DNA from: a virus
Strand: one strand, 5' to 3'
Virus record (IMG/VR): IMGVR_UViG_3300044729_000061
Location: 1 to 24,995 of that record
Length of the DNA stretch: 24,995 nucleotides
Position 1 is the first letter of the stretch. Each line of letters begins with the position of its first letter. The notes beneath the pieces are model-generated. The model ran no database searches. It had not been told where the DNA came from and saw only the letters and a program-made list of their open reading frames with translations. The translations under genes were made by a program, and so were the position numbers. This document shows positions 1 to 20,822 of this stretch, piece by piece.

Positions 1-1341
1 ACTCCGTCTTTCCGGTCTCTGGCCAACGACGACCTTCCCGCTTCTGGCGTGGTTGCCGCGACCTACGGTACGGCTTCTGCTGTTCCGGTGTTCACGGTCA
101 ACGCCAAGGGTGTCGTGACCAATGTCACCAACACCACGATCGCCATCTCGAACACTCAGGTGTCTGGCCTGGGCACGATGTCCACCCAGAACGCCACTTC
201 TGTGGCCATCACGGGTGGGGCGATTGACGGCACGACCATCGGCGGGACGACTCCTGCTGCGGGTACGTTCACTTCGGTGACGATGACTTCCGGGACGATC
301 ACCACGGCTCCGGTCAGTGGCAACGACATCGTCAACAAGACCTACGCGGATTCGATCGCCTCAGGCATCAACTTCCACCAGTCCTGCGTCTACGCCACGA
401 CTACGGCTCTTGCGGCGAACACCTACAACAACGGCATCTCCGGTGTTGGAGCAACCCTGACCGGGAACGTCAACGGTGCTCTGGTCATTGATGGCCACAC
501 CTTCGTTTCCCCGACGGATGTTGGCAAGCGGGTTCTGATCAAGAACGAAGGTAACGCTGCGTACAACGGCGTCTATACCGTCACGCAGACGGGTAGCGCC
601 GGTGCTGTGTACATCCTGACCCGTGCGACTGACTTCGATACCGCGGGCTCTGGTGTTGACCAGATCGATCAGGGCGACTTCTTCCTGATCACCGCGGGTA
701 CGGCGAATGCCAATACTTCGTGGGTGCAGCAGACTCCGCTGCCAGTCACGGTTGGTACGACGGGAATCGTCTTCTCGCAGTTCGGTGCGCCGCTGACCTA
801 CTCAGCCGGGACTGGGCTGAATGAGTCCCCTGCCTACACCTTCAACATCGCCAACACCGGCGTGACATCCGGGAACTACGGGAGTGCTTCCTCTGTCCCG
901 GCGATCTCGGTCAATGCTCAGGGCCAAATAACCTCTGCGACCAACACCTCGATTGCGATCGCCGCATCGCAAGTCACATCTGGATCGTTTGGGGTAGATC
1001 GTGGCGCGGTTGGCATCACCAGTTATGCCGCAGGCGACATCATTTATGCCAACACCACCACATCTTTTGACAAACTGGCGATTGGCGCGGCAAGCCGGAT
1101 TCTGACTTCTACAGGGTCTGCTCCGTCATGGACTGATCCGTCAACCATTACGGTTGGCACGGCCACAAACGCCACCAATGCAACGAATGTCGGAGTGGCG
1201 GTAGACAGCACCAATGCCAACTACTTCCTCGGCATTTACAGTACAAATACCGGGAACTTGCCTACTAAGGTGGCAACTGGTCTGACCGCTAATCCTTCCA
1301 CCGGCATGATTACTGGTGGCATCTCTGGAGGAACCTTCTGA
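1..1341 (+). CDS. tail fibre protein, 5' end missing
   Basis: The frame is open from base 1 and the residues before the GTG at 49 (FRSLANDDLPASG) are typical fibre sequence, so the real start lies left of the window. The protein is low-complexity and rich in Thr, Ser, Gly and Ala, as in beta-structured trimeric phage fibres. One unit (AATYGTASAVPVFTVNAKG, about 55-155) recurs near 855-960 as SGNYGSASSVPAISVNAQG. A globular-looking segment near 350-800 separates them. A segment near 1035-1140 (GDIIYANTTTSFDKL, then SAPSWT) is of a kind common in phage fibres. It ends in GGISGGTF. The stop overlaps the next ATG by one base (TGATG). It likely binds the host surface. Which end of the fibre this is cannot be told. 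Confidence 0.8.
   Translation, partial: TPSFRSLANDDLPASGVVAATYGTASAVPVFTVNAKGVVTNVTNTTIAISNTQVSGLGTMSTQNATSVAITGGAIDGTTIGGTTPAAGTFTSVTMTSGTITTAPVSGNDIVNKTYADSIASGINFHQSCVYATTTALAANTYNNGISGVGATLTGNVNGALVIDGHTFVSPTDVGKRVLIKNEGNAAYNGVYTVTQTGSAGAVYILTRATDFDTAGSGVDQIDQGDFFLITAGTANANTSWVQQTPLPVTVGTTGIVFSQFGAPLTYSAGTGLNESPAYTFNIANTGVTSGNYGSASSVPAISVNAQGQITSATNTSIAIAASQVTSGSFGVDRGAVGITSYAAGDIIYANTTTSFDKLAIGAASRILTSTGSAPSWTDPSTITVGTATNATNATNVGVAVDSTNANYFLGIYSTNTGNLPTKVATGLTANPSTGMITGGISGGTF
1327..1332 (+). promoter_or_regulatory. ribosome-binding site embedded in the upstream fibre C-terminus
   Basis: GGAGGA lies 8 bases before the ATG at 1341. It is formed by the two glycine codons of the terminal SGGTF of the preceding fibre gene, so the conserved C-terminal peptide and the signal for the next gene share the same bases. 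Confidence 0.7.
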
Positions 1342-2594
1342 TGGCTGCAACAGGCTTCACCCCGATCCAACTCTACAGAACCTCTACGGCTTCGGCCGCG
1401 CCGACCGCGGGGAACCTTGCAGACGGCGAACTGGCCATCAACGTCACCGACGGCAAGTTGTTCTACAAGGACAACGCAAGTGCTGTTCAGGTCATCGGTT
1501 GGAAGGTGGTTCCCGCAACGGCAGGTGGAACTGGTCTTACCTCTTCTGGCGCCAATGGAAACGTCCTGACCTCCAACGGCACTACCTGGACTTCGGCTGC
1601 CCTGCCTGCCGGTGGTTTGACCTATATCTACACGACCACGCCGATCACGCTGACGGACAAGCAAGGCGCGTTGGCTGACACCTCTGGTGGTGCGTTCACC
1701 ATCACGCTGCCTGCAACGCCTGCTACGGGCGCTCAGGTTGTCGTGGCTGATGCCGGAGCATCTTGGGGTACCAACAACCTGACGGTTGGCCGCAACGGCT
1801 CTACCATCGGTGGAATCGCTCAGGACTTGGTCTGCGACATCACCGGTGTCAGTGTCCAGTTGGTCTACGACGGCACCACCTGGGAGGTGTACGCCCAGAT
1901 CGGCGGCAACGGTGGCAACGCCGCGACTCAGCCTGGGAACAACAACTTCACGGGCGCCAACACCTTCTACAACAACAGCGGTCAGGTCTTCGGAACCGGG
2001 ACTACCTCTCAGGACGGCATCATCCTGGCCGGACGGGCGGGGGGTTCTTCATCTCTGCGGGCAACACTTCAGCCTGCAACGCTGTCAGGCAACCAGACTC
2101 TCACGCTCCCGGACGCCACGAGCACCCTGGCCGTTCTGGGCTTGGCTCAGACCTTCACCGCTACGCAGACCCTGACGGGCTCTTCTAGCGTCCTGGGGGC
2201 GGTTCTGAGCGACACCGCAGAGGTGACGACCATCTCCGCAACTGCTGCGACGGGCACGATTGCTTACGACACCACCACCCAGTCGGTGCTGTTCTACACC
2301 TCCAACGCTTCTGCGAACTGGACGGTGAACTTCCGGGGATCGAGCGGAACGAGCCTGAACACGTTGATGTCCACGGGTCAGTCTCTGACAGTGGCCTTCT
2401 TGGTGACCCAAGGCGCAACTGCGTACTACAACAGTGCGGTGCAGATCGACGGCAGCAGCGTCACGCCGAAGTGGCAAGGCGGCACGGCCCCGAGCGCAGG
2501 CAATGCGAGTGGCATTGACGCCTACGTCTACACGATCATCAAAACTGGTAGCGCCACGTTCACGGTCCTGGCTTCGCAAACCAAGTTTGCATAA
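1341..2594 (+). CDS. tail fibre / receptor-binding-type structural protein
   Basis: A 417-residue phage fibre protein. The N-terminal region contains NLADGELAINVTDGKLFYKD, the attachment-type motif seen at the start of many phage fibres, followed by TAGGTGLTSSG and a GNVLTSNGTTWT segment. The middle (about residues 110-190) has the pattern DTSGGAFTITLPATP, then NNLTVGRNGSTI and VQLVYDGTTWEVYA, which recurs across fibre proteins of marine and freshwater phages. The C-terminal half is Thr/Ser rich. No enzymatic motif (lyase, hydrolase or peptidase) is visible. The start is set by the 1-base overlap with the upstream stop and the GGAGGA 8 bases before. It probably acts at the distal tail in host recognition; its partner and receptor are unknown. 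Confidence 0.75.
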   Translation: MAATGFTPIQLYRTSTASAAPTAGNLADGELAINVTDGKLFYKDNASAVQVIGWKVVPATAGGTGLTSSGANGNVLTSNGTTWTSAALPAGGLTYIYTTTPITLTDKQGALADTSGGAFTITLPATPATGAQVVVADAGASWGTNNLTVGRNGSTIGGIAQDLVCDITGVSVQLVYDGTTWEVYAQIGGNGGNAATQPGNNNFTGANTFYNNSGQVFGTGTTSQDGIILAGRAGGSSSLRATLQPATLSGNQTLTLPDATSTLAVLGLAQTFTATQTLTGSSSVLGAVLSDTAEVTTISATAATGTIAYDTTTQSVLFYTSNASANWTVNFRGSSGTSLNTLMSTGQSLTVAFLVTQGATAYYNSAVQIDGSSVTPKWQGGTAPSAGNASGIDAYVYTIIKTGSATFTVLASQTKFA

Positions 2595-2604
2595 GGGGTA
2601 GACG

Positions 2605-4557
2605 ATGCCGTTGCTTGAAACCAAAGGTGCTGCGTCAGCCCAAGGGTTCGGCCTGACGCTTCAGCAGGCCGCGGCCAACTACATCGAGGACGTGTTCTCG
2701 ACGTGGCTCTACACCGGCAATGGCTCTACGCAGACCATCACCACTGGCATTGATCTGGCGGGGAAAGGTGGGATGCTGTGGATTAAGAATAGGTCATCGG
2801 CTACCAACAATATCATTAGTGATACCGTGCGGGGGGCCGGTAACTTTTTGATGTCCAATGCCTCATCCCAGCAGTTTTTTAATACCGATAACGTCAGTGC
2901 TTTAAGTTCTACGGGATTTTCTGTTGGTGTTGACAGCAACACTAATGGCACAGCAGGAAACCTGTATGCCTCATGGACATTCCGCAAGCAGCCGAAGTTC
3001 TTTGATGTGGTGACGTATACGGGGAATGGAAGTAATCGAGCAATTTCTCATAACTTAGGATCAACCCCTGGATGCATTATTGTTAAATCTACAAGCGCGT
3101 CAGGATTCTGGGCTGTTTACCACAGATCAGAAGGTGCAACTAAAGTTTTGTTGTTAAACACAACTGGAGCGTCTGTAGCGGTAAGTTCATATTGGAATGA
3201 TACAGCGCCAACATCAACGCAATTTACCGTTGGAACCGCAAGCGCAGTAAACGATAACGGAGTTACCTACGTCGCCTACCTCTTCGCCCACGACGCAGGA
3301 GGCTTTGGCCTGACGGGTACGGACAATGTGATTTCGTGTGGGTCTTATACGGGCAATGGCAGCACAACAGGCCCGACGATCACGCTTGGATACGAGCCAC
3401 AGTGGTTATTGGTAAAAAGAGCCTCCGGAACTTCTAACTGGTTCTTGATGGATGTAATGCGAGAGTTGACGACAGACAACAATTCTTACCTATATGCAAA
3501 CGCCTCTGATCCCGAGTATTCAAATCTTGGAAGATTTGCCATAACTTCCACGGGATTTAAAGTAATAACAAGCAATTCATCAGAGAACGCTACCGGAGAG
3601 ACCTACATCTACATCGCCATCCGTCGCGGCCCGATGAAAACTCCGACGACGGGGACGAGTGTGTTTCAGCCTACGACATGGACTGGAACGGGCGCGGCAT
3701 TGCAGCAGAACGTAAACATCAACTACGACTCTTTCATGCAGTGGCGTCGAAACGGAGGGTATTCAACGCCGTGGATGGATAGGCTGAGGGGCTTCGGTTA
3801 CTCGCTTTATACGCAGCAAACGAGTGCGGAAGTAAATCAAACTGCATTCATTGCGGGTACGCTTCGAAACAACTTCGTCAATTTTGTTGACGGCACTTAC
3901 AACTTGAACGGAGAGCCGTGGCTTAACTACGCGTTTGTCCGCGCCCCCGGCTTCTTTGATGTGGTTTGCTATACGGGGACGGGTGCTAACCGCACTGTGA
4001 GTCATAACTTAGGCGTTGTGCCGGAGTTGATGATTGTGAAGTCTCGATCTATTGCTCAGAATTGGCCGGTTTATTCGGCGGCTACTGGAGCAGGCAATAG
4101 ACTAAGAGTTGACTCAAACGGCGCATCTGCTGCTGATACAACACTTTGGAACAACACAGCCCCAACTGCCTCTGTGTTTTCGCTAGGCACTAACACAGAG
4201 TCAAATTCCAACACAGCAACCTACGTTGCCTACCTCTTTGCCTCCTGCCCGGGCGTCAGCAAGGTCGGAACATACACCGGCACAGGCGCGTTGCAGACCA
4301 TCAACTGCGGTTTCACGGGTGGCGCTCGGTTTGTTTTGATTAAGCGTACTGACGGTATTGGGGGTTGGTTTGTGTACGACTCTGCTCGGGGCCTGAGCAG
4401 CGGCAACGATCCATATTTACTGTTAAACACCACGGATGCGGAAGTCACGAGCACCAACTACGTTGACACCACCAGTGTGGGGTTCCAAGTCACCGCAGCA
4501 GCACCGGCGGGGTTGAACGCAAACGGCGGGACCTTCGTGTTCCTTGCAATTTCGTAA
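2605..4557 (+). CDS. six-module tail fibre/tail surface protein (DUF7483-like repeats)
   Basis: A 650-residue protein made of six tandem modules of about 90-100 residues. Each opens with YTGNG, YTGTG or WTGTG and closes with a hydrophobic strand such as YVAYLF, YIYIAIRRG or FVFLAIS. Modules lie at about residues 34-127, 137-228, 247-341, 358-446, 455-546 and 556-650. Modules 1-3 and 4-6 look like one three-module block copied: FFDVVTYTGNGSNR and FFDVVCYTGTGANR sit at the same place in each half, followed by SHNLG and IVKS. This repeat style is frequent in environmental phage tail proteins (I recall the name DUF7483). The fold is presumably beta-sandwich, possibly carbohydrate-binding, which is inference. 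AAGGGG lies 6 bases before the ATG. Base composition is uneven, with clearly AT-richer patches (about 2780-3250, 3470-3600 and 4020-4210) beside GC-richer ones, as expected from module exchange. Confidence 0.75.
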   Translation: MPLLETKGAASAQGFGLTLQQAAANYIEDVFSTWLYTGNGSTQTITTGIDLAGKGGMLWIKNRSSATNNIISDTVRGAGNFLMSNASSQQFFNTDNVSALSSTGFSVGVDSNTNGTAGNLYASWTFRKQPKFFDVVTYTGNGSNRAISHNLGSTPGCIIVKSTSASGFWAVYHRSEGATKVLLLNTTGASVAVSSYWNDTAPTSTQFTVGTASAVNDNGVTYVAYLFAHDAGGFGLTGTDNVISCGSYTGNGSTTGPTITLGYEPQWLLVKRASGTSNWFLMDVMRELTTDNNSYLYANASDPEYSNLGRFAITSTGFKVITSNSSENATGETYIYIAIRRGPMKTPTTGTSVFQPTTWTGTGAALQQNVNINYDSFMQWRRNGGYSTPWMDRLRGFGYSLYTQQTSAEVNQTAFIAGTLRNNFVNFVDGTYNLNGEPWLNYAFVRAPGFFDVVCYTGTGANRTVSHNLGVVPELMIVKSRSIAQNWPVYSAATGAGNRLRVDSNGASAADTTLWNNTAPTASVFSLGTNTESNSNTATYVAYLFASCPGVSKVGTYTGTGALQTINCGFTGGARFVLIKRTDGIGGWFVYDSARGLSSGNDPYLLLNTTDAEVTSTNYVDTTSVGFQVTAAAPAGLNANGGTFVFLAIS

Positions 4558-4559
4558 AC

Positions 4560-5105
4560 ATGGCACACACAAACCTTTATCTCAAGGCGTATACGCAACA
4601 CAAGAGCAACGCCAAGACGCGAGGCGTGGAGTTTCTGTTTACCTTTGAGCAGTGGCGCGACTGGTGGATAGCCACTGGCAAGTGGGAGCAGCGTGGTCGT
4701 GGTCGCGGCAAATACTGCATGAGGCGTCATGGCGACATCGGCCCGTACAGCATTGACAACGTGTTCTGCGGCACTAACGAGGACAACGTGCGCGATGGAA
4801 ATGTCGGGAAAGTGGATAGCCTTGTAACGCGCCTCAAGAAGTCTGAGGCACTTATTGGCAAGCCGAAACCTTGGGCAGTTGGCGACCGCAACCCTATGCA
4901 CCGGCCTGAAGTCAAGGCGAAAATGAGTGCTGCTATTGGTGGCGCAAACCACTACAACGCGATTGGAGTGACGACCCCGCAAGGGTTCTTCCCAACCGCC
5001 AAGGCTGCGGCGGCAGCACTAGGAATGAAGAAGCCAACTGTTGAATGGCGAGCGCGGCACAACAAGTTTGGTTTTAGTTACGGAAACCACCTCGCCATCG
5101 CATAA
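4560..5105 (+). CDS. HNH/NUMOD3-type homing-endonuclease-like DNA-binding protein
   Basis: 181 residues. Residues 11-36 (THKS-like helix, then FTFEQWRDWW) and 49-82 (RGKYCMRRHGDIGPYSIDN, then NEDNVRDG) match the arrangement seen in small phage HNH-family proteins, where RxGDxGxYxxxNV is followed by a T/NxxEN motif. Residues 100-127 (GKPKPW to GDRNPMHRPEVKAKMS) resemble a NUMOD3 DNA-binding motif, and residues 139-173 (TPQGFFPTAKAAAAALGM and after) resemble a NUMOD1-like helix-turn-helix. The Cys and His pattern of a classical HNH site is incomplete, so nuclease activity is unproven. It could be a DNA-binding relative only. The ATG is 2 bases after the upstream stop and lacks a recognisable Shine-Dalgarno sequence. 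It sits between a fibre gene and a chaperone-like gene, consistent with a free-standing mobile gene inserted in the fibre operon. Confidence 0.6.
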   Translation: MAHTNLYLKAYTQHKSNAKTRGVEFLFTFEQWRDWWIATGKWEQRGRGRGKYCMRRHGDIGPYSIDNVFCGTNEDNVRDGNVGKVDSLVTRLKKSEALIGKPKPWAVGDRNPMHRPEVKAKMSAAIGGANHYNAIGVTTPQGFFPTAKAAAAALGMKKPTVEWRARHNKFGFSYGNHLAIA

Positions 5106-5114
5106 GGAGCAATC

Positions 5115-5612
5115 ATGGAAATCAGAATCAGGGCCACTGGCCAAGTGATGTTGGAGGATGAACTCCGGCGTTGGGCGCGGGACAACGGTGGCCCGTCATG
5201 GGATCGCACCACGGACGAGGTGCTAGAGGCGCTTGGCGCTGATGTGGTCTTTGAAGGCCCACAAGCGACCGGAGGTACGGTCTATCAGTTCTCCATGCGT
5301 CAAGGCGTGGAGCAGATTGACGGTAAGTGGTTCACCAAGCACGTTCTTGGCCCGATCTTCACGGACACAGCCGAAGCCACCGCTGCCGAGCAGGAAGCCG
5401 CCTACAAGGCTCAGAAGGACGCCGAGCAAGCCAAGGCTGTGCGCGAGCAGCGCAGCCAAAAACTCAAGGACACGGACTGGACGGTCATCAAGGCTTTGGA
5501 GTCAAATACGCCTCAGAACTTTGATATGGCAGCGTACCGTCAGGCACTGCGGGACATCACCTCGCAAGCCGGGTTCCCCTGGACAGTGCAGTGGCCCACT
5601 CAGCCGGAGTAA
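5115..5612 (+). CDS. tail fibre assembly chaperone-like protein (first copy)
   Basis: 165 residues. The C-terminal part (about 115-165: LKDTDWTVIKALES, then YRQALRDITSQAGFPW and VQWPTQPE) matches the C-terminal signature of small phage tail-fibre assembly proteins (Phage_tail_APC type). The N-terminus (MEIRIRATGQVMLEDELRRW) and the middle QIDGKWFTKHVLGP segment, followed by a charged helix (AEQEAAYKAQKDAEQAKAVREQRSQ, about residues 90-114), also fit that class. The expected role is folding or trimerising an adjacent fibre in the cytoplasm. The last part is nearly the same as that of the gene at 6780, and 22 bases are identical (5589-5610 and 7110-7131). AAGGAG lies 5 bases before the start. 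Its natural partner may be the fibre at 2605 or the one just downstream at 5616. Confidence 0.65.
   Translation: MEIRIRATGQVMLEDELRRWARDNGGPSWDRTTDEVLEALGADVVFEGPQATGGTVYQFSMRQGVEQIDGKWFTKHVLGPIFTDTAEATAAEQEAAYKAQKDAEQAKAVREQRSQKLKDTDWTVIKALESNTPQNFDMAAYRQALRDITSQAGFPWTVQWPTQPE
5606..5609 (+). promoter_or_regulatory. ribosome-binding site inside the chaperone-like C-terminal codons
   Basis: GGAG, from the terminal Pro-Glu codons CCGGAG, sits 6 bases before the ATG at 5616. The same bases end the second chaperone-like gene (7127-7130), 5 bases before the ATG at 7136. Confidence 0.6.
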
Positions 5613-5615
5613 GAC

Positions 5616-6770
5616 ATGGCAAACCTTTCCAACATCATCACGCCCACCAACGTCCTGACGGCCAGTAGCACCAACACGCTGTCTAACAAAACCATCAGCG
5701 GGGCGAGCAACACGATCACCAACGTCAGCCTGTCTACAGGCGTCACCGGCACGCTTCCGGTCGCTAATGGTGGTACTGGACAAACCACCTATACGGACGG
5801 ACAACTGTTGATTGGCAACAGCACGGGCAATACGCTTACCAAAGCAACGCTGACAGCAGGCTCTGGGGTAACTATTACCAACGGCTCTGGTTCTATCACC
5901 ATTGCCGCATCTGGCGGAAGTGCTAATTTCCAAGAGTTTACTTCTTCTGGCACTTGGACAAAACCTTCCGGCGCTACCTTTGTGTTGGTTGAGGTGTGGG
6001 GTGCAGGTGGCGGTGGCGGCAGTGGTGGTAGCGGAGGAACTCGTTCTGGTGGTTCTGCCGGTGCTGGCGGTGCGTATGCTTATCGTTTGTTCAAAGCATC
6101 TGATCTAAGCGCAACTGAAAGCATCACGATTGGAGCAGGCGGAACTGGAGGAACGGGAGTTTTAAGCGCAAATGGGAATAATGGTACATCCGGGGGCGCG
6201 AGTAATTTTGGAACAAAACTGTATGCCTATGGGGGCGATCAAGGTGAGGGAGGCGCTACAGCCGTTAGAGCCGGTTCCAGAGGCGGCGGTGTTCTAAATT
6301 CTTCAGGAGACCCCCGAAACTATGCATCATCAGGATATCAAACCGGCCAATTCGGCGGCGTAAATACCGTATCACCGAATTTTGCTGGTGCCTCTTCTGG
6401 ATTTGGTGGTGGAGGTGGCGGAGGCTCTCCAACAAGCGGGGCCGGACAAGAAGGAGGCTGCTCGTATCAAGGCGGAGCGGGTGGCGGTGGAGGCGGTGGC
6501 TCTAGTAGCGGCGCAGGAGGAGCGGGAGGTTCGATTACAGGAGCAAGCGGCGGCGGCGGAAGCGGCGGTAGCGTTGGAGGCCCAGGATCAGCAGGCTCTA
6601 CATTTAGATTCGGAGGCGGCGGTGGCGCAGCAGATAGCGTAACCGTCGGAGGCGCAGGAGGCGCAGGAGGAGTTGCTGCGGGTGGTGGCGGAGGCGGTTA
6701 CTCAGGCGCGAACGACAGCGGCGCAGGCGGTAATGGTGGTAATGGATACTGCCGTGTCTATACTTGGTAA
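5616..6770 (+). CDS. glycine-rich tail fibre/adhesin
   Basis: 384 residues in two parts. Residues 1-108 are a beta-structured fibre stalk with NTLSNKTISGASNTIT, GTLPVANGGTGQTTY and a GSGVTITNGSGSITIAASG segment, all frequent in phage fibres. From about residue 109 (FTSSGTWTKPSGATFVLVEV, then WGAGGGGG) to the end comes a glycine-rich domain with long Gly/Ser/Ala runs, closing in NGGNGYCRVYTW. The pattern is that of phage glycine-rich tip domains; polyglycine sandwiches such as the T-even gp38 adhesin are the structural analogy, not a proven relation. Variable loops between Gly runs would contact the receptor (inference). The stretch at about 6100-6400 is somewhat AT-richer than its surroundings. 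The start follows the upstream stop by 3 bases. The assembly-chaperone-like gene directly downstream is a plausible partner. Confidence 0.75.
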   Translation: MANLSNIITPTNVLTASSTNTLSNKTISGASNTITNVSLSTGVTGTLPVANGGTGQTTYTDGQLLIGNSTGNTLTKATLTAGSGVTITNGSGSITIAASGGSANFQEFTSSGTWTKPSGATFVLVEVWGAGGGGGSGGSGGTRSGGSAGAGGAYAYRLFKASDLSATESITIGAGGTGGTGVLSANGNNGTSGGASNFGTKLYAYGGDQGEGGATAVRAGSRGGGVLNSSGDPRNYASSGYQTGQFGGVNTVSPNFAGASSGFGGGGGGGSPTSGAGQEGGCSYQGGAGGGGGGGSSSGAGGAGGSITGASGGGGSGGSVGGPGSAGSTFRFGGGGGAADSVTVGGAGGAGGVAAGGGGGGYSGANDSGAGGNGGNGYCRVYTW

Positions 6771-6779
6771 GGGAAAAAC

Positions 6780-7133
6780 ATGAGATACGCAATCATCAAA
6801 GATGGCAAGGTGGCAAACATTGCGGTTGCCGATCCTGAATATGCACAGTCTCAAGGTTGGGTTGAATGCTCTTCCGGTGTTGACATTGGATGGGTGTTTG
6901 ATGGCAACACACCACTACCACCTCCTCCTGATACTGAAGGTGAAGCAGCAAAAGTAAGGGCGCAACGCGATCAGTTGCTTATTGCTTCAGACATCAATGT
7001 ATTGCCTGATCGATGGAATTCGATGACCGTTGAACAGCAGCAGGCGTGGTCGACTTATCGCCAAGCCTTGCGCGACATCACCGCACAAGCCGGGTTTCCT
7101 TGGGACGTTCAGTGGCCCACTCAGCCGGAGTGA
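6780..7133 (+). CDS. tail fibre assembly chaperone-like protein (second copy)
   Basis: 117 residues. The N-terminus MRYAIIKDGKVANIAVADPE, then GWVECSSGVDIGW with VFDGNTPLPPPP, is the standard opening of small phage fibre-assembly proteins (a short beta region ending in a proline linker). The C-terminus (about 63-117: AQRDQLLIASDINVLPDRW, then YRQALRDITAQAGFPW and VQWPTQPE) is the APC-type signature. It is almost the same as the end of the gene at 5115, but the two N-terminal halves differ, so the pair shares only its tail. AAGGG lies 6 bases before the start. The position immediately after the glycine-rich fibre suggests it assembles that fibre. Confidence 0.7.
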   Translation: MRYAIIKDGKVANIAVADPEYAQSQGWVECSSGVDIGWVFDGNTPLPPPPDTEGEAAKVRAQRDQLLIASDINVLPDRWNSMTVEQQQAWSTYRQALRDITAQAGFPWDVQWPTQPE

Positions 7134-7135
7134 GC

Positions 7136-7282
7136 ATGGAACTTCGAGTACCTATTGAACTTGCTAACCAGATCATTGGTTACTTGGCCACCAAGCCTTA
7201 CCAAGAGGTCTTCCAACTCATTGACGGCCTGAAAGAGGCCGCCAAGCCCCCGCAACCACCCAAGGAGCAGGAAAATGGCTGA
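7136..7282 (+). CDS. small conserved phage protein, function unknown
   Basis: 48 residues (MELRVPIELANQIIGYLATK, then PYQEVFQLIDGLKEA and a proline-rich, charged tail). It looks like two helices and has no membrane segment. I chose the ATG at 7136 because GGAG lies 5 bases upstream and the start falls 2 bases after the preceding stop. The longer in-frame opening upstream would overlap the chaperone-like gene. Similar short proteins occur near fibre and lysis genes of environmental phages, but no function is known to me. It overlaps the next gene by 8 bases. Confidence 0.65.
   Translation: MELRVPIELANQIIGYLATKPYQEVFQLIDGLKEAAKPPQPPKEQENG
7262..7267 (+). promoter_or_regulatory. Shine-Dalgarno sequence for the 57-codon gene
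   Basis: AAGGAG lies 7 bases before the ATG at 7275 and is coded within the end of the upstream gene. It is the main support for the tiny downstream gene. Confidence 0.7.
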
Positions 7283-7448
7283 GAAGTGGATCCAGAAGGC
7301 GATATCTAAGCCTGGGGCCTTGCGAGAGGCTTTGGGCGTCAAGGAAGGGAAGAAGATCCCGGCCAAGAAGTTGTCTGTGAAGGAGTCTGACTCTCCCTTG
7401 ATGAAGAAGCGCAAGACCTTGGCTAAGACTTTGAGAGGTTTCGACTGA
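7275..7448 (+). CDS. tiny basic phage protein (57 residues)
   Basis: It starts MAEKWIQKAISKPGALREAL, continues GVKEGKKIPAKKLS and ends KKRKTLAKTLRGFD. It is strongly basic (about 14 lysines) and has no membrane segment. The pattern KPGALRxxLGVKxGxxIPAKKL is one I recognise from many small, unassigned phage proteins, where it forms the whole protein or a C-terminal part; the function is unknown. A nucleic-acid or virion-associated role fits its charge but is a guess. It is supported by a perfect AAGGAG at the right distance, tight packing (8-base overlap upstream, 2-base gap to the next ATG) and family resemblance. Its short length makes it easy to miss. Confidence 0.7.
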   Translation: MAEKWIQKAISKPGALREALGVKEGKKIPAKKLSVKESDSPLMKKRKTLAKTLRGFD

Positions 7449-7450
7449 TC

Positions 7451-7684
7451 ATGAGCGCGGAGATCGATCCAGTCCGCTATGGAGTCCTGTGGCAGAAAGT
7501 CCAGGACTACGAGCGTCGCTTCGATGACATGAGCAAGAAGATGGACAAGATGGAACACCAACTGGATCAGTTGGTCGGCCTCGCCAATCAAGGCAAGGGC
7601 GGCTTCTGGGCCGGGATGGTGTTCGTCTCCGCGGTCTCTACAGTTGTGGGATATGTTTCCCACTTCTTTCACAAGAGCGCATGA
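7451..7684 (+). CDS. small membrane protein with coiled coil, lysis-block member
   Basis: 77 residues. Residues 12-44 form a charged heptad-like helix (DYERRFDDMSKKMDKMEHQL), and residues 51-69 (GFWAGMVFVSAVSTVVGYV) form one membrane segment, leaving a short basic C-terminus. With a cytosolic N-terminus this would be a C-tail-anchored type. Such proteins stand next to holin genes in many phages and are variously called holin-like, but no holin family is certain here. It is the first of four consecutive small membrane-protein genes before the lysozyme. It overlaps the next gene by 4 bases if that gene starts at 7681. Confidence 0.65.
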   Translation: MSAEIDPVRYGVLWQKVQDYERRFDDMSKKMDKMEHQLDQLVGLANQGKGGFWAGMVFVSAVSTVVGYVSHFFHKSA

Positions 7685-8097
7685 TGGACGCCCAGGAACT
7701 GGCCATCTTCAAGGCTCAGGCCAAGGCGGAACTTAACCGCCTTGAGGCCGAGAGTACAGCCAAGGAAGTTGCCGGGAAGGCCATCGGCAAGCATGGTCTT
7801 GCCTATATCACGGCCATCGTGGTGATCGGGGTCGGTGCTTCTATCGTCCTTGAGAACGAGAAGATCGCCGCGGTGATGGGTCTCCTGGGCGCTGCCCTCA
7901 CAGCCTTGATCTCCATGCTCAACGGCATCGCCGGAGCCAATCCGAAGCAGGAGAAGCCCGAGTTTGAGGTGATCAAGCACCTGATCGACAAGTTGGACCG
8001 CCTGGACAAGCCTGAGCAGCCCATGAAGGTGACTGTTCAGGGCGACAAGGTCACGGTCAGCAAGGGCGACGACACCGTAACGGCGTCAAGGGAGTAG
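7681..8097 (+). CDS. putative holin-like protein with two membrane segments
   Basis: 138 residues. The N-terminal helix (1-35) is charged. It is followed by membrane segments at about 40-57 (LAYITAIVVIGVGASIVL) and 62-85 (IAAVMGLLGAALTALISMLN) with a short charged turn (ENEK) between. The C-terminal tail (about 88-138) is soluble and ends in two short strand-like repeats (MKVTVQGDKVTVSKGDD). A hairpin of this form fits a class II-like holin, but the long tail is unusual and a different membrane role is possible. Two ATGs occur in a row (7681 and 7684). AAGAG at 7673-7677 is spaced better for 7684, so the first Met may not be used. Confidence 0.55.
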   Translation: MMDAQELAIFKAQAKAELNRLEAESTAKEVAGKAIGKHGLAYITAIVVIGVGASIVLENEKIAAVMGLLGAALTALISMLNGIAGANPKQEKPEFEVIKHLIDKLDRLDKPEQPMKVTVQGDKVTVSKGDDTVTASRE

Positions 8098-8099
8098 TC

Positions 8100-8375
8100 A
8101 TGGCGTGGTCAGACGTACTCAAGGCAGTCATCCCTATCGTGGTGGCTGCGCTTGCTTGGCTTCTAGGTCAAGTGGCATCCTTCTCTGAGCGTCTGACCAA
8201 GATTGAGGGACAGATGCCCGCCCTGATCACCAAGGAAGGCGTTCCCACCGACAGCCCGATTAGCGCAGAACGCAGGGCGATCCTGAAAGAGCAACTGATG
8301 ACGCACATCAACGATCTTCAGGTCAAGGTCAGGCTGCTTGAGGAACGCGAGCGTATTGCCAAGGGGAACAAGTAA
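8100..8375 (+). CDS. N-terminally anchored small protein with coiled coil (lysis block)
   Basis: 91 residues: one N-terminal membrane segment (8-25, AVIPIVVAALAWLLGQVA), then a polar stretch with VPTDSPISAERRAILKE and a helical C-terminus (56-87) rich in Glu, Arg and Lys. The topology (N-terminal anchor, then coiled coil) resembles an inner-membrane spanin or a small holin-associated protein. No paired outer lipoprotein with a lipobox is seen, so a spanin role is only a possibility. AAGGGAG lies 5 bases before the ATG. The stop overlaps the next start by one base (TAATG). Confidence 0.6.
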   Translation: MAWSDVLKAVIPIVVAALAWLLGQVASFSERLTKIEGQMPALITKEGVPTDSPISAERRAILKEQLMTHINDLQVKVRLLEERERIAKGNK

Positions 8376-8869
8376 TGTTGGAACTACTTAGCGGCGGCAT
8401 CTTCGGCTCCCTCCTGGGGGGCATTTTTCGTCTTGCGCCAGAGGTTCTGAAGTTCTTCGACAAGAAGAATGAGCGTCAGCATGAACTTCTGATGTTCCAA
8501 CGCCAGTGCGACCTAGAACAGATCCGGGGTCAGCAGAAACTGGCCGAGATCGGCGCTGCAAGAGATGCGGCGATTGATGTAGGCGTGATGGATGCCTTCA
8601 ACGCAGCCATCAATCAGCAGGCCGAGATGGCCAAGGCTGCAGGCGGTTGGGCCGCTTCCCTGTCGGCTTCCGTGCGACCCGTGGTGACCTACTGGGTGAT
8701 CTTGCTGTGGTCCTTCGTTCACTTGTGGTTTGCTTGGAACGCATGGCTCCAAGGCGCTGCGCCCCGTGAAGTGTTTGAGACCATGATGACCGCGGACTTC
8801 ATGGCCTTGGTCTCAGGGACGATCAACTACTGGTTCCTCGATCGCACCCTCAAGCAGCGTGGGCTATGA
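8375..8869 (+). CDS. putative holin, 3-TM GTA-holin-like family
   Basis: 164 residues. An N-terminal hydrophobic stretch (about 4-20, LLSGGIFGSLLGGIFRL) is followed by a long charged helix (23-66), then a clear membrane segment at 102-122 (PVVTYWVILLWSFVHLWFAW) and another at about 138-155. The motif SVRPVVTYW before the second segment and the ending NYWFLDRTLKQR fit the three-membrane-segment holin family described for gene-transfer-agent release (GTA_holin_3TM). The role would be to permeabilise the inner membrane and release the lysozyme. AAGGGG lies 8 bases upstream. The stop overlaps the lysozyme ATG by 4 bases (ATGA), which supports paired expression. Of the four membrane genes in this block it is the best holin candidate. 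Confidence 0.65.
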   Translation: MLELLSGGIFGSLLGGIFRLAPEVLKFFDKKNERQHELLMFQRQCDLEQIRGQQKLAEIGAARDAAIDVGVMDAFNAAINQQAEMAKAAGGWAASLSASVRPVVTYWVILLWSFVHLWFAWNAWLQGAAPREVFETMMTADFMALVSGTINYWFLDRTLKQRGL

Positions 8870-9348
8870 AACTCGACATCGCAGAGGAACTCTGCCGTCG
8901 GTTTGAGGGTTTACACCGAGTTGGGTCGGATGGGCTGATCTACCCCTACGTCTGCCCTGCCGGGTTTCCAACGCAGGGCTACGGAACGGTTTTCCGGCCT
9001 GATGGGCGGAAGGTGACGATGGACGATCCTCCGATCACCCGCGAGACGGCCGAGCAATGGCTCAAGGTGGATCTGCTGAACACCTATGCCCCCGGCGTAG
9101 TCCGTCAGTGCCCGATCCTGCTGACTCTTGCCCTTCGGGAGAACGACTGGCCCAAGTTCAATGCGATCGTGGACTTTGCGTACAACTTGGGGGTTGGTCG
9201 CTTGCAGACCTCCACCCTAAAGCGCAAGATCAACGCCCAGGACTGGGATGGAGCAAAGGAGCAGTTGATGCTTTGGGTTCGGGGTGGCGGCCGGGTTCTT
9301 CCTGGCCTAGTTCGTCGTCGTGAGGCCGAGCGTGCCTTGATGGGGTAA
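8866..9348 (+). CDS. endolysin: GH24 phage lysozyme (muramidase)
   Basis: 160 residues covering the whole lysozyme fold, with no signal peptide, so it should need a holin to reach peptidoglycan. The catalytic Glu is E14 (RRFEG). The next two positions of the Glu-Asp/Cys-Thr triad are C30 and T36 in CPAGFPTQGYGT; Cys replaces Asp as in many lambdoid-type lysozymes. The helical region FNAIVDFAYNLGVGRLQTST (99-118) and the ending LPGLVRRREAERALMG are textbook for GH24. The spacing between E14 and C30 is several residues longer than in T4 lysozyme because of an insert (RVGSDGLIYP). The enzyme cleaves the MurNAc-GlcNAc bond. The gene ends 2 bases before the next ATG. Confidence 0.93.
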   Translation: MKLDIAEELCRRFEGLHRVGSDGLIYPYVCPAGFPTQGYGTVFRPDGRKVTMDDPPITRETAEQWLKVDLLNTYAPGVVRQCPILLTLALRENDWPKFNAIVDFAYNLGVGRLQTSTLKRKINAQDWDGAKEQLMLWVRGGGRVLPGLVRRREAERALMG

Positions 9349-9350
9349 AT

Positions 9351-9743
9351 ATGAGTTCTGCCGTCAAATCTGATCCTGCCAAGTGGAAGCGGATCGTCGC
9401 TTCGGTCAAAGCCTCCGACAAGGGCGGAAAACCGGGCCAATGGAGCGCCCGCAAGGCCCAACTTGCAACTCAGAGATACAAAGGCTCTGGAGGGGGTTAC
9501 AAGGGGCCGAAAAGTGCCGATAATTCGCTCTCAAAGTGGACTAAAGAGGACTGGGGAACCAAGTCCGGGAAGCCCTCCACTCAAGGCCCTGAGGCGACTG
9601 GCGAAAGGTATCTGCCCAAGACTGCTCGGGAGAAACTATCCTCGGCAGAGTATGCGGCGACAACCCGAGCCAAGCGCGAAGGCATGAAGCAAGGCAAGCA
9701 GTTCGTTCCTCAGCCCGAGTCGATCAAGAAGAAGGTGTGGTGA
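9351..9743 (+). CDS. basic DUF5872-like protein
   Basis: 130 residues, highly basic. It opens with SDPAKWKRIVASVKAS, then GGKPGQWSARKAQLATQRYK, GGGYKGPKSADNSLSKWTKE and DWGTKSGKPS. The second half carries ATGERYLPKTAREKLSSAEY and AATTRAKREG, then GKQFVPQPESIKKK. This order is that of the DUF5872 family, found in phages and large viruses and in some eukaryotes; no function is established. A packaged DNA-binding role is only a guess from charge. It follows the lysozyme directly, with GGGG a few bases upstream of its ATG, and its stop overlaps the adaptor gene's start by one base. Confidence 0.7.
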   Translation: MSSAVKSDPAKWKRIVASVKASDKGGKPGQWSARKAQLATQRYKGSGGGYKGPKSADNSLSKWTKEDWGTKSGKPSTQGPEATGERYLPKTAREKLSSAEYAATTRAKREGMKQGKQFVPQPESIKKKVW

Positions 9744-10378
9744 TGCCGACAGCAAGTGTCATGACATACGACAGTTTGGTCGAAAACATCCAGTCCTACC
9801 TGGAGCGTACCGACCAAGCGACGCTCGACAAGATTCCACTGTTCATCATGCTCGCCGAGCAGGTTATTGCTTCCCAGATCAAGTTTCTGGGTAACCTGAC
9901 GGTTCAGCAAAGCGCCATGGTTCAAGGCGCTAATGTCATCGACAAACCCGCTCGGTGGCACAAGACGGTTTCGATGAACATCACCGTCGCAGGTAAGCGG
10001 TATCCCGTACTGCTTCGCAAGTACGAATATCTGCGGGAGTATTGGCCTGATCCTTCTCAGGAACTGATACCGAAGTTCTACTGCGACTACGACTACACCC
10101 ACTGGATGGTGGCTCCGACGCCGGATGCTGCCTACAACTTTGAGGTGCTGTACTACGAGCGGATTCAGCCTCTAGACAGCAGCAACCAGACCAACTGGTT
10201 CACGATCTACGCTCCTCAAGCCCTCTTGTACGGATCTTTGTTGCAGTCAATGCCATTCTTGAAGAATGACGATCGCATACCGATGTGGCAGCAGCAGTAC
10301 GACGCGATCATGCAGACGCTGATGGCCGAGGATAAGTTGAGGATTGCCGATCGTCAGGCTGTTGCGATGGACAGTTAA
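9743..10378 (+). CDS. head-tail adaptor-like protein (SU10-adaptor type)
   Basis: 211 residues from the ATG at 9743. This start overlaps the upstream stop by one base and has GAAGG 7 bases before it, so it is preferred over the GTG codons at 9737 and 9740. A further ATG at 9761 gives MTYDSLVENIQSYLERTDQA, the usual opening of the family, so 9761 is a real alternative. The mostly helical N-terminal part (IPLFIMLAEQVIASQIKFLG) and the later VLLRKYEYLREYWPDP, KFYCDYDYTHWMVAPTP and FEVLYYERIQPL fit the adaptor proteins that bridge portal and nozzle in short-tailed phages. Position before the nozzle-like gene agrees. The C-terminus (about 150-211) is helical, with MWQQQYDAIMQTLMAED. Confidence 0.75.
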   Translation: MPTASVMTYDSLVENIQSYLERTDQATLDKIPLFIMLAEQVIASQIKFLGNLTVQQSAMVQGANVIDKPARWHKTVSMNITVAGKRYPVLLRKYEYLREYWPDPSQELIPKFYCDYDYTHWMVAPTPDAAYNFEVLYYERIQPLDSSNQTNWFTIYAPQALLYGSLLQSMPFLKNDDRIPMWQQQYDAIMQTLMAEDKLRIADRQAVAMDS

Positions 10379-11627: not shown

Positions 11628-14600
11628 GTGACGAAGAAAGTATTCGCGCTTGACACCAAGCCCGGCATTCAACGGGACGGAACCGTCTTTGACAAGGAGT
11701 TCTACACCGATGGCCGTTGGGTGAGGTTTCAGCGTGGACGCCCTCGAAAGATGGGCGGATACCGGGAGATCACAAACGAACTCAGCGGGCCTTCTCGCGG
11801 GATCTATGTCAACCCTCAGGACGGCTTCACGAACGTCTTCAACGGGTGGTCTGACGGCATTCAGGTGCTGCCGATCAACAACGACGGCATCGGTGCGGGC
11901 ATCACAAACTTCACGATCGCCGGTCCTATCCTGACGGTCAACACGCTTGTCGGCGGCTCTCAGTACACCAACGGCACCTACACCGAAGTGCCTTTGACTG
12001 GCGGATCTGGGTTCAGTGCTGAGGCCACGATTGTGGTTTCCTCCAACTCTGTTTCTTCGGTAACGATAACGAGCGGCGGCAACGGCTACCTTCCTGGCAA
12101 TACGCTGTCTTGTTCAGCAGCGCAGATTGGAAACGGCGTACAGACCTTCGGAGCGATTACAGGTGGTTCTCTGTACACGGATGGAACCTACCTCAGCGTT
12201 CCACTGACAGGCGGAACGGGATCTGGAGTCACTGCCAACATCACAGTGTCTGGTGGTGCCGTGACCGGTGTAGTGCTTCAAAACCGCGGTATTGGATACA
12301 CGGTCAGCGATGTTCTGAGCGCAGCGGCCGCCAACATTGGTGGCGTTAGCGGCATCATCAACACCTTTGGATACCTGATCCCTGGCTCTCTGTACACGCC
12401 GGGAACCTACTCCAATGTCTCGCTAACTGGCGGGACTGGAACGGGCGCGGTTGGAACCATCGAGGTGCTTGACAGCGGCATCTCCACGGTTGACAACATC
12501 ACCAGTGGCTCGAACTACACCAACGGCTCATTCTCAAATATAGCCCTGACCGGCGGGGCTGGTTCTGGCGCACTAGCCACCATCACCGTCTCTGGTGGGA
12601 ACGTAACCTCGGTGAATGTGACCTTCGGCGGTAACAACTACACCGTCAACGATGTGCTGTCCTGCAGCGCCGCAAGCATCGGCAGCGGAGTGGCCACATT
12701 CGGCGCCATCATTGGCGGCTCTGGATACGTCAACGGCATCTATCCCAACGTCACCCTTACCGGAGGCACTGGGAGCGGCGCTAGGGCCACGATTACGGTG
12801 TCTGGCGGCATCGTGATCTCCGTTACCCTGACCTATGCGGGGGTTGGCTACACCGCATCAGATACGCTGACAACAGCCAACACCAACTTGGGCGGCACTG
12901 GATCAAGTTTCTCTGTGGCGGTGGCCACTGTGGCGGCTAGTGCAGGTTTCCAGTGTGATGTGGCGTCTGTCACCACAGGCGGTGTTGGCAAAGTTACGCT
13001 GACCAACGACGGCAGTGGATACGCTGTTGGTGATGTGTTGTCTGCTCCGGCTGACGACATCGGTGGAATTTCTGGCGTCATCGGTGCGCTTGGCGGGATC
13101 ACGGGGGGTAATTTCTACACCAACTCCTCCACCGCTTCCGGTAGTTCTTCCTCAATCTCCGGGACTGTTTTGACCGTTGGCGGGACTGTCACGGGCACTT
13201 TCGCTGTGGGGCAGACGCTTTCTGGCTCTGGAGTCCTGGCCAATACGGTGATCACCTCCCTGGGATCGGGATCTGGCGGCGCAGGAACCTACAACATCAA
13301 CAACAGCCAAACGGTTTCAACTACAGCGATCTCCGCTCTGGGCGTCTATCGTGACACGCCTCTGACGGGCGGATCTGGCACTGGAGCGACGGCCAACATC
13401 GTGGTCTCCAACAGTCGGGTGTCCAGTGTGACGATCGTTGAGCCCGGTGTTGATTACGCTGTTGGTGACTCTCTGAGCGCCACCCTCGGTGGGGTGTCCA
13501 ACGGTATTGCAAGTCTCGGGGCCATCACGGGTGGGTCTAACTACACCAACGGCACTTACACGAACGTGTCGCTGACGGGTGGCTCTGGAACGGGCGCGAA
13601 GGCAACAATCAGTGTGACTTCAAACGCCGTTTCTGGTGTGACCATCACAGATCCGGGGCAAAACTATGCGGTGTCTGATTCTTTGGGTTGTGCTGCGTCT
13701 GCCATCGGCAACGGCATCAACACGCTCAATCCGCCGACTGGCGGAACGAACTATGGTGACGGCACCTACACCAATGTCTCTTTGACTGGCGGGACGGGCT
13801 CTGGAGCAAAGGCCACCATCGTCGTCGCTCTTGGTACGGTTACCTCAGTCACGTTGACCTCCCGCGGCATCGGATACACCGCTTCAGATAGTCTGAGCGC
13901 AGCAGTAACCGATCTTGGCGGGAACACCAACGGCATCAACACATTCGGTGCGATCACTGGTGGTTCCAACTACACGAACGGCACCTTCACCAATGTTCCG
14001 CTGACAGGTGGATCTGGAACCGGCGCCACGGCCACGATCACGGTTTCCGGAAACGCCGTGACGGCGGTGACGATCACCAACCGCGGCAACAACTACACCA
14101 ACACCGACACTGTCAGTGCTGCAGCGTCCTCCATCGGAAACGGCATTCAGACCCTGGGAACGATCACCGGAGGTTCTGGATACACCGGCAATGAGATCGC
14201 CACTCTAGGCACGATCGTTGGCGGTTCTGGATATACCGACGGAACATATTCCGGGGTTGCTCTAACGTCCTTGACGGGTTCTGGCGTCAACGCAACTGCA
14301 GACATCACGGTGTCTGGCGGTGCTGTGACTGCTGTGACGATCGTCAACAAGGGCAGCGGTTATGCCGTCAATAACAGCCTGACAGCCCCCGCTTCAAGCA
14401 TTGGCGGCACTGGAAGTGGCTTCTCTGTTCCGGTGGCCACTATCAACGCAACCGTGACCTACACGAACGTACCGTTGATCGGAGGATCTGGAACTGGTGC
14501 TCAGGCGTCAATCACGGTGTCTGGTGGCTCGGTCACGGCTGTCACGCTCACGAGTCGCGGTCGCGGATACCTTGCCAGTAACATCATGTCGGCCGCCTCA

Positions 14601-16207
14601 ACGAACATCGGCGGCACCGGCTCTGGCTTCGTGGTTCCAGTCTCTGCCATATACGCAAGTTCAGGGTTCTCTGTGCCTGTTGCGTCTGTGGTGACCAGTA
14701 GTGGCTTTGCTGTGACTGTGGCAACTACTTACGCGAGTTCTGGCTTTGCGGTTCCGGTGGCTTCATTGGGAAGCGCAGGCGGGTTCTCGGTTCCTGTGAC
14801 TTTCACCAGAAGCAGCACTGGGTTCCAGTTCTCCGTGCTGACAGTTGCTCAGAGTTCTGGTTTTTCTGTGCCTGTCTCTGCCATCTACAACAGCAGTGGG
14901 TTCTCGGTGAATGTGGCCACTGTTGATCAGCAGTTCACTGCGAGTTCAAACATCTTGTGGCAGTTTGATGCTCTGTACAGCATCACGGGGGGAGAAAACC
15001 TGCTCCTGGCGCATCCTGGCCGCAACTTGATTGAGATCGACAGCACGGTCAACACGCCGGTTCTGTACGGCAACATCACCGGAACAAGCGTCTATCCCCT
15101 CAAAGACACGGGCGGCTCTAACCCCACGGGGCAGACTATCAGCGTTTCCGGTGGAGTGGTCGCGCTTCACCCGTATGTTTTCGTGTACGGAAACAACGGT
15201 TTGCTCAAGAACTGCTCGGCGGGAGACCCAACGGACTGGAACTCTCCTGACGCCAACGAGACGAACGTGGCAACCGGAAAGATCGTCAAAGGTCTGCCGG
15301 TTCGAGGCGGCTCTAACGCGCCTTCCGGCCTCTTCTGGAGCCTGGACAGCCTGATCCGAGTTTCGTACATCGGCGGGTCCGGAACTCCTCCTCAATACTG
15401 GCGATACGACATCATCTCCAGTCAGACCTCGATCCTCTCAAGCCAGTGCGTCATTGAGTATGACGGCATCTACTTCTGGATTGGTGTGGATCGCTTCATG
15501 TTGTACAACGGTGTGGTCAAAGAGATCCCCAACAGCATGAACCAGAACTACTTCTTCGACAACCTGAACTACAGTCAGTCGCAGAAGGTTTGGGCGACCA
15601 AGGTTCCTCGGTTCGGGGAAATTTGGTGGTTCTATCCGCGAGGAGACTCGACCGAGTGCAACGACGCGATCATCTACAACATCCGTGAAGACACTTGGTA
15701 TGACCTTGGTCAGGCTGTTGGAGGCCGTCGCTCTGCGGGCTACTTTTCTCAGGTTTTCCGGTTTCCTGTGAATGCCGGATGGGAGCAAAACGCCACGAAT
15801 GAGGTCTCCCTGTGGCAGCATGAGTTTGGAACGAATGCCATCCAAGGCTCAACTTTCTCGGCCATCGAGAGTTCGTTCACGACCTCTGATCTTGGCATCA
15901 TCGCCGGAGGGCCATCTCAGCCCTCACCGGTGGGTGAAAACCGTTGGCTGCGACTGGAGCGGGTGGAGCCAGACTTCTTGCAAAACGGCGAGATGGAACT
16001 CTATGTTTTGGGCCGTCCCTATCCTCAGGAGCAGGACAAGATCAGTAGTGCCTACACCTTCCAACCCGGAACGGGCAAGATAGACATGAAAGAGCAGCGG
16101 CGCTTGCTGCGACTGAAGTTCGTGTCAAATGTGGCCGACGGAAACTATCAGGCCGGTAAAGTTATCGTGGACGCAGATGTCGGCGATGTTCGCGGGTACA
16201 GCACATC

Positions 16208-16211
<4 letters not shown>
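11628..16211 (+). CDS. gp10/nozzle-like tail protein with giant repeat insertion
   Basis: 1527 residues starting at GTG. Residues 1-107 (TKPGIQRDGTVFDKEFYTDG, WVRFQRGRPRKMGGYREI, GPSRGIYVNPQDG, FNGWSDGIQVLPINNDG) and about 1099-1527 read as one protein of the P22 gp10 / podovirus nozzle type. Supporting segments are FTASSNILWQFDALY, NLLLAHPGRNLIEIDS, VFVYGNNGLLKNCSAGDP, DGIYFWIGVDRFMLYNG (about 1279-1295) and EIWWFYPRGDSTECNDAIIY. Such proteins form a beta-propeller ring below the adaptor and close the DNA channel. Residues 108-1098 are repeats (annotated separately) placed between NDGIGAGITNFT and FTASSNILW. The flanks alone total about 536 residues, an ordinary nozzle size, so the repeats are best read as an insertion that would project from the tail. 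Adaptor upstream and internal-type proteins downstream agree. Confidence 0.75.
11949..14651 (+). repeat. array of about 70-residue beta repeats within the nozzle-like gene
   Basis: The unit consensus opens TGGSxYTNGTYTNVxLTGGS, continues GTGAxATITVSGGxVTxVTI, then TxxGxGYxVxDxLSAAAxxI and G. Unit starts are at 11949, 12159, 12378, 12501, 12711, 13101, 13527, 13737, 13956, 14166 and 14217, with a partial unit near 14457. The spacings 210, 219, 123, 210, 390, 426, 210, 219, 210 and 51 bases show a core period of 210 or 219 (70 or 73 residues). Short, long and truncated units come from deletion, extra half-units or nested inserts. All stay in frame. Confidence 0.9.
13116..13340 (+). repeat. foreign module nested inside one repeat unit
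   Basis: Following TGGNFYTN the array is broken by a segment with SSSISGTVLTVGGTVTGTFA, VGQTLSGSGVLANTVITSLG and GAGTYNINNSQTVSTTAI. This is a self-contained beta module that occurs in many other phage tail proteins and is unlike the 70-residue unit. The unit then resumes with VYRDTPLTGGSGTGATANIV. Borders are approximate. Confidence 0.7.
14652..14924 (+). repeat. ladder of seven 13-residue (39-base) units
   Basis: Units such as YASSGFSVPVASV, VTSSGFAVTVATT, YASSGFAVPVASL, AQSSGFSVPVSAI and YNSSGFSVNVATV follow each other with no length change for 273 bases, then give way to FTASSNILWQFD. The same 13-residue form appears at the ends of several 70-residue units (GTGSGFVVPVSAI just before the ladder; GTGSSFSVAVATV with AASAGFQCDVASV near 12890-12970). 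Confidence 0.9.

Positions 16212-20822
<4,611 letters not shown>

Follow-up and report, generated by a model that had tools for sequence, protein, structure and literature searches.

A tail nozzle gene with a large insert

The DNA analyzed here, referred to as the window, is a stretch of 24,995 nucleotides from the IMG/VR virus record IMGVR_UViG_3300044729_000061. Its focal feature is one intact open reading frame (positions 11628-16211, + strand) with a GTG start, coding for a protein of 1527 aa in which a long repeat array separates two flanks (Table 1). The C-terminal flank matched solved nozzles in phmmer searches (9nwi_Y, E = 1.4e-10; 8zkm, 1.7e-9; 8zkk, near 1e-9), and it also matches phrog_3287. 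An AlphaFold2 model of a relative, L007, rather than of the window protein itself, reached moderate confidence (pLDDT 67.9) and retrieved the nozzles of Pa223, SU10, VP1, P22, and T7 in Foldseek with E-values of 8e-16 to 5e-7 (SU10, 3e-14); an hhalign comparison of the nozzle profile with SU10 gp17 gave a weak match confined to the C-terminal part. The nozzle gene lies close downstream of a gene for an SU10-type adaptor, with one gene between them. The flank matches, the nozzle-like model of the relative, and the upstream adaptor gene bear out the first-pass annotation, which had taken the two flanks for a single nozzle protein. We regard it as practically certain that the window protein is a podovirus tail nozzle of the SU10/P22/T7 type. 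The phage would be an SU10-like short-tailed one, and by homology the nozzle is predicted to be a hexamer.

Directly upstream of the adaptor gene, positions 1-9348 code for tail-fibre-like proteins, two assembly-factor-like proteins, and holin and endolysin candidates. Positions 16455-20822 code for a protein of 1,455 aa, which had no PHROG match and is encoded where a needle, tape-measure, or ejection protein would be expected; it carries a Gly-Thr tract (GTGTGT...) of ~180 residues (19559-20113) with a shorter Thr-Gly-Gly tract ahead of it.

Table 1. Adaptor gene, nozzle flanks, and predicted domain segments of the nozzle insert, with nucleotide positions in the window (res, residues; A-E, modules of the repeat unit)
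Feature	Coordinates	Strand	Basis
SU10-type adaptor protein	9737..10378	+	PF24175, E = 1.5e-24; nozzle docks on adaptor
Nozzle N-terminal flank, res 1-97 (start of platform/propeller core)	11628..11918	+	Core columns 1-97
Domain 1 opening, res 98-170	11919..12137	+	PSSM modules A-D; nucleotides from residue numbers
Domain 2 opening, res 171-243	12138..12356	+	Modules A, B, and D; C degenerate and under threshold
Domain 3 first part (A-B), res 244-284	12357..12479	+	Modules A, B; resumes at 12978
Domain 4 opening, res 285-354, in B-C loop of domain 3	12480..12689	+	Modules A-D
Domain 5 complete, res 355-436, inside domain 4	12690..12935	+	Modules A-E, contiguous
Domain 4 closing strand (SAGFQCDVASV)	12936..12977	+	Module E, 6.4 bits, weak alone
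Domain 3 second part (C-D), res 451-484	12978..13079	+	Modules C, D without preceding A-B
Domain 6 opening, res 485-626, interrupted in YT loop	13080..13505	+	Modules A, B, C, D
Second domain type (SISGTVLTV...GTYNINNSQTV) inside domain 6	13119..13337	+	phrog_21413
Domain 7 opening, res 627-696	13506..13715	+	Modules A-D
Domain 8 opening, res 697-769	13716..13934	+	Modules A-D
Domain 9 opening, res 770-839	13935..14144	+	Modules A-D
Domain 10 first part (A), res 840-856	14145..14195	+	Module A; interrupted by domain 11
Domain 11 complete, innermost, res 857-940	14196..14447	+	Modules; absent from L009, L010, L011, L090
Domain 10 second part and closing strand, res 941-1010	14448..14657	+	Modules B-E
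Seven closing strands, period 13, res 1011-1100: domains 9, 8, 7, 6, 3, 2, 1	14658..14927	+	Seven consecutive E modules
Nozzle C-terminal flank, res 1101-1527 and stop (rest of propeller, platform)	14928..16211	+	phmmer, phrog_3287, core alignment

Insertion site and length variation

A scan of viral contigs yielded at least 600 relatives, of which 80 were kept before identical copies and fragments were removed; the resulting core alignment comprises 68 nozzle proteins, among them those of the window and of two GenBank phages, over 517 columns. Between core columns 97 and 98, these 68 proteins carry 0-1, 84-88, 175-176, 916-917, 1003, or 1099-1102 residues, and all 517 core positions run continuously across the insert whatever its length. 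We looked for repeats integral to the propeller and for flanks unlike nozzles, and instead found many relatives without any insert (e.g., L073, L030, and L043), which, together with the unbroken core, sustains the view that the array was inserted near the N-terminus. With limits set by these insert-free relatives, the window insert covers residues 98-1100 (1,003 residues; nucleotides 11919-14927). The extent previously given, residues 108-1098, is thus roughly right, except that the N-side boundary lies about 10 residues further out. As L004 and L006, which are on other contigs, have inserts equal in length to that of the window, the length of the array is not an assembly artefact.

The core has two further insertion sites. 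In some other relatives, the array's domain occupies one of them, near window residue 1387, and another domain type is found at the other, near residues 1158-1167. What these two sites carry is thus either the array's domain or a second domain type (SGTGIPAGTTV...), as observed in L030, L061, and L016. The first domain type lies inside the second in L030, and a third type lies inside the second in L016 and in L020/L021; in the latter pair, the host is the second-type domain within domain 6.

The repeat unit and its modules

The unit, as defined from 21 relatives with a single insert, is an 85-aa domain made up of ~72 aa and a last beta strand (GSGFSVPVATV), with the consensus GGxILTLGTLVGGSxYTNGTYTNVxLTGGSGTGAKATIVVxGGxVTTVTITxxGxGYxVGDxLSAxAASIGGTG-SGFSVPVATVx. 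Its profile scores 660 bits (E = 9.6e-206) on the nozzle ORF and matches no other ORF of the window. We cut the domain into PSSM modules A-E, E being the last strand; module scores reach 52 bits as against shuffle maxima of ~9-14, and the counts of openings and closings given below rest on these scores combined with a reading of the alignment. Searches of Pfam, NCBIfam, and the PDB with the single domain and with the whole insert recovered no relative by sequence. The insert is beta-rich, with no confident match to an Ig-like or other fold. An AlphaFold2 model of it (residues 88-1110, 12-row alignment) had a pLDDT of 55 and a pTM of 0.25, and a comparison of this model with PDB structures returned nothing (best E 0.15). 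Because of this low pLDDT, sequence order and natural variation, not structure, are the basis for the nesting described below.

The first-pass annotation had described the array as periodic at 70/73 residues. The repeat itself stands, whereas that spacing holds only for openings 1, 2, 4, 7, 8, and 9; elsewhere, the distances are 41, 130, 142, and 17 residues, and the final ~90 residues of the insert follow a separate 13-residue period (SSGFSVPVASVVT...) that had not been set apart. This terminal run is the key to the architecture of the insert.

Openings and closings in mirror order

The modules of the window insert read ABCD ABD AB[ABCD[ABCDE]E]CD A[..]BCD ABCD ABCD ABCD A[ABCDE]BCDE EEEEEEE, that is, 11 openings and 11 closings in mirror order, two weak and spurious module hits inside the second domain type having been left out of the count. 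Written as brackets, this gives 1(2(3a(4(5))3b(6(7(8(9(10a(11)10b))))))), with a depth of nine (10 when the nozzle is included as the outermost host). All domains except 5 and 11 are interrupted, and as many as ~920 residues separate a last strand from its opening. The inserts enter at least four loops: within A (domain 11 in 10), B-C (domain 4 in 3), after C (in L007), and, most often, D-E. The run of seven closing strands is common to all 12 of the long-array sequences. The closing strand of domain 4 is conserved in most of A4; in L087, it has suffered an in-frame deletion of five residues, the only imbalance among the long arrays.

A simpler account would be tandem repeats of 70 residues followed by a separate 13-residue repeat forming a beta-solenoid or sheet, with no nesting at all. 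The superficially regular 70/73 spacing over several units and the clean terminal 13-residue period fit this account, and AlphaFold does not resolve the terminal run. Against it, relatives with one copy carry the 13-residue motif as the final strand of their 85-aa domain, where E belongs to a single domain, and nesting is thereby supported. Further, openings and closing strands are equal in number in every array read other than that of L087 (11/11, 10/10, 6/6, 4/4, 3/3, 2/2, and 1/1), and domain 3, domain 10, and domain 1 of L007 each break off and later resume.

Natural variation also favors nesting. L009, L010, L011, and L090 lack exactly domain 11, its opening and its closing together, and in them domain 10 is uninterrupted, giving an empty/filled pair with the window. 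In L007 and L008, a complete domain splits a second one, whose tail follows behind it: a direct two-level nest. In the window, then, a domain interrupts another and is itself interrupted, which is recursive insertion at the sequence level; complete units in succession, as in the BACON arrays of crAssphage, are not what the array contains. Hence, the earlier picture of a giant repeat arm gives way to one of recursively nested domains, on account of the mirrored closings, the empty/filled pair, and the resumed domains.

Two other lines of evidence weigh less. With openings and closings paired as mirror images, the similarities of the closing strands correlate with those of the openings (r = +0.21 to +0.37), which is not so under same-order pairing (-0.34 to -0.48); this test is weak, however (permutation P 0.02-0.11), and to some extent circular, given that all innermost domains have, by definition, an intact junction in common. 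Likewise, the well-formedness of the brackets is by itself weak evidence, since about 1 in 12 random orders with equal counts would have it; the argument for nesting therefore relies on the equal counts and natural variation and not on well-formedness alone. Taken together, these observations make it very probable that the chain folds as nested domains, and the tandem account highly unlikely. As an explanation of the whole, an arm of 11 nested beta domains on the nozzle, with an SU10-like role, is the one we favor, at a probability of roughly 0.75.

Selection and history of the insert

Between the window and L006, L009, and L085, the insert has dN/dS ratios of 0.07-0.16, and the flanks have 0.07-0.20 against L006 and L009 where estimable; synonymous sites are near saturation, making the ratios rough. 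The insert values indicate that it is maintained by purifying selection. In the core tree, the long-array nozzles do not form one clade but split, with weak support (0.73-0.85), between two positions, one with the window, L004, and L006 and the other with L009-L011, L020-L021, and L085-L089; lineages may have exchanged the insert.

The array could also have been built up non-adaptively, as a mobile, self-tolerant domain cassette that accumulates in loops without any role. Consistent with such a history, the array's domain turns up at two nozzle sites, within a different domain type, and in unrelated virion proteins, and its copy number ranges from 0 to 11. Purifying selection and the preservation of the same nest order across relatives at 58-78% identity argue against it, and we consider it improbable.

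Mirrored arrays in cyanophage virion proteins

Distant relatives of the array are present in virion proteins of marine T4-like cyanophages, including fibre and baseplate proteins. Counted by eye, openings equal closings in P-SSM4 (6/6), P-RSM4 (4/4), P-SSM7, S-SSM6b, S-RIM14, S-CAM22, and ACG-2014g (3/3 each), and S-SSM5 and S-ShM2 (2/2 each). Under leave-one-out scoring, the counts are equal in five of the nine cyanophage arrays; three of the mismatched ones acquire a single weak hit from a constant segment further downstream, and in S-SSM6b the last opening drops below threshold. Orthologs form a series, from S-SSM5 (1,2 / 2c,1c) through P-SSM7 (1,2,X / Xc,2c,1c) to P-RSM4 (1,2,Y,X / Xc,Yc,2c,1c), in which each opening gained at one end is accompanied by a closing at the mirror position. 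In S-PM2, the modules read AB AB ABCDE CDE CDE. The nested design thus appears, as judged from module order, to occur independently in unrelated cyanophage virion proteins.

These arrays of the Kyanoviridae (the YadA-domain structural protein of P-SSM4 and the baseplate connector of S-CAM22; PHROG 5342, 6005, and 438) share a related domain and the same mirror architecture with the window; in contrast, they belong to other host proteins and another phage type and have two to six levels. We found no report of nesting in Kyanoviridae virion repeats in the literature searched. ORF108 of S-TIM4 was mutated in all populations evolved on poor hosts (PMC6224464). Its counterpart in P-RSM4 (a YadA-domain structural protein; cf. 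L095) has a four-level array.

A proposed arm on the nozzle

We propose that the arm would leave the nozzle at residue 97, at the apparent junction of blades 2 and 3 of the beta-propeller, as read from sequence order and not from superposition. Eleven homologous beta domains of ~85 residues would follow in the order nozzle > 1 > 2 > 3 > 6 > 7 > 8 > 9 > 10 > 11, and domain 3 would also bear the side branch 4 > 5; each host domain would be interrupted, usually just ahead of its last strand, by the next complete domain, and the last strands would return in reverse order on the chain's way back. On physical reasoning, two chain segments across every joint should make a stiffer rod than a tandem string, and during infection such arms around the tail may lengthen or brace the channel at the cell surface. 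This geometry, stiffness, and role, as a nested counterpart of the SU10 nozzle domains, are put forward tentatively by analogy, at slightly less than even odds.

The arms might instead be receptor- or glycan-binding devices, which is compatible with nesting and differs only on function; the first-pass annotation had suggested host glycan binding or side attachment. Their expected exposed position on the tail, the related domains in cyanophage fibre and baseplate proteins, and the mutation of S-TIM4 ORF108, the counterpart of the P-RSM4 protein with the four-level array, during adaptation to poor hosts (PMC6224464) would suit such a function. However, the insert's dN/dS of 0.07-0.16 is low where recognition surfaces often evolve fast, the insert matched no carbohydrate-binding family, and separate tail-fibre genes and assembly factors already occupy positions 1-7133 of the window. 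A binding role is accordingly the less likely function, though a more credible alternative than a roleless array.

More broadly, we give an even chance to the proposition that several kinds of phages build long virion arms from a self-inserting domain, reaching beyond six levels, with double-chain joints selected for stiffness. The relatives with 0, 1, 2, 10, or 11 copies, as the comparison of repeat counts brought out, form a natural series for studying the origin, folding, and use of nested proteins. They raise a folding question, in that domain 1 is unfinished until ~920 residues later. Repeat finders call nested arrays tandem and misplace the domain limits, and the nested insert itself would provide a testable arm in phage tails.

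Comparison with known nozzles and nested proteins

The nozzles of P22 (gp10), T7 (gp12), Pa223, and VP1 have their fold in common with the window protein, and no comparable insert in them was found in the literature searched. A close parallel is SU10 gp17 (PDB 7z47 and 7z4f), likewise a propeller nozzle on an SU10-type adaptor with extra domains apparently at the same site: four Ig-like domains located between blades 2 and 3 of the propeller. These straighten on infection and, together with the short tail fibres, lengthen the tail by ~28 nm (PMC9509320). We liken the arms to these domains because the window insert starts at the corresponding point of the chain, near residue 110 in SU10 and at residue 98 in the window by comparison of sequence order only. 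In contrast, the four SU10 domains lie mainly in sequence order, whereas the 11 of the window belong to another sequence family and appear nested nine deep. Residues 303-308 of the SU10 protein have been assigned to nozzle domain 4 (PMC9509320), and ~100 further residues follow this position ahead of blade 3; hence, going by the numbering, SU10 domain 1 may itself be interrupted once.

Recursive insertion as such is already known. A 2026 survey, which covered 2.7 million classified domains, cites cyanobacterial rpoC2, with six nested levels, as its extreme example (PMC13114784); the nine levels read from the window, in an unrelated protein, would exceed this. For phage structural proteins, we found no report of nesting in the open-licence literature searched. 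This SI3 region of the cyanobacterial RNA polymerase is reported to form an arch with sigma (PMC10120043). SI3 resembles the window array in the recursive insertion of beta domains and in its branching hosts (PMC13114784), and differs from it in being an unrelated protein with an unrelated domain and in having six levels as against nine.
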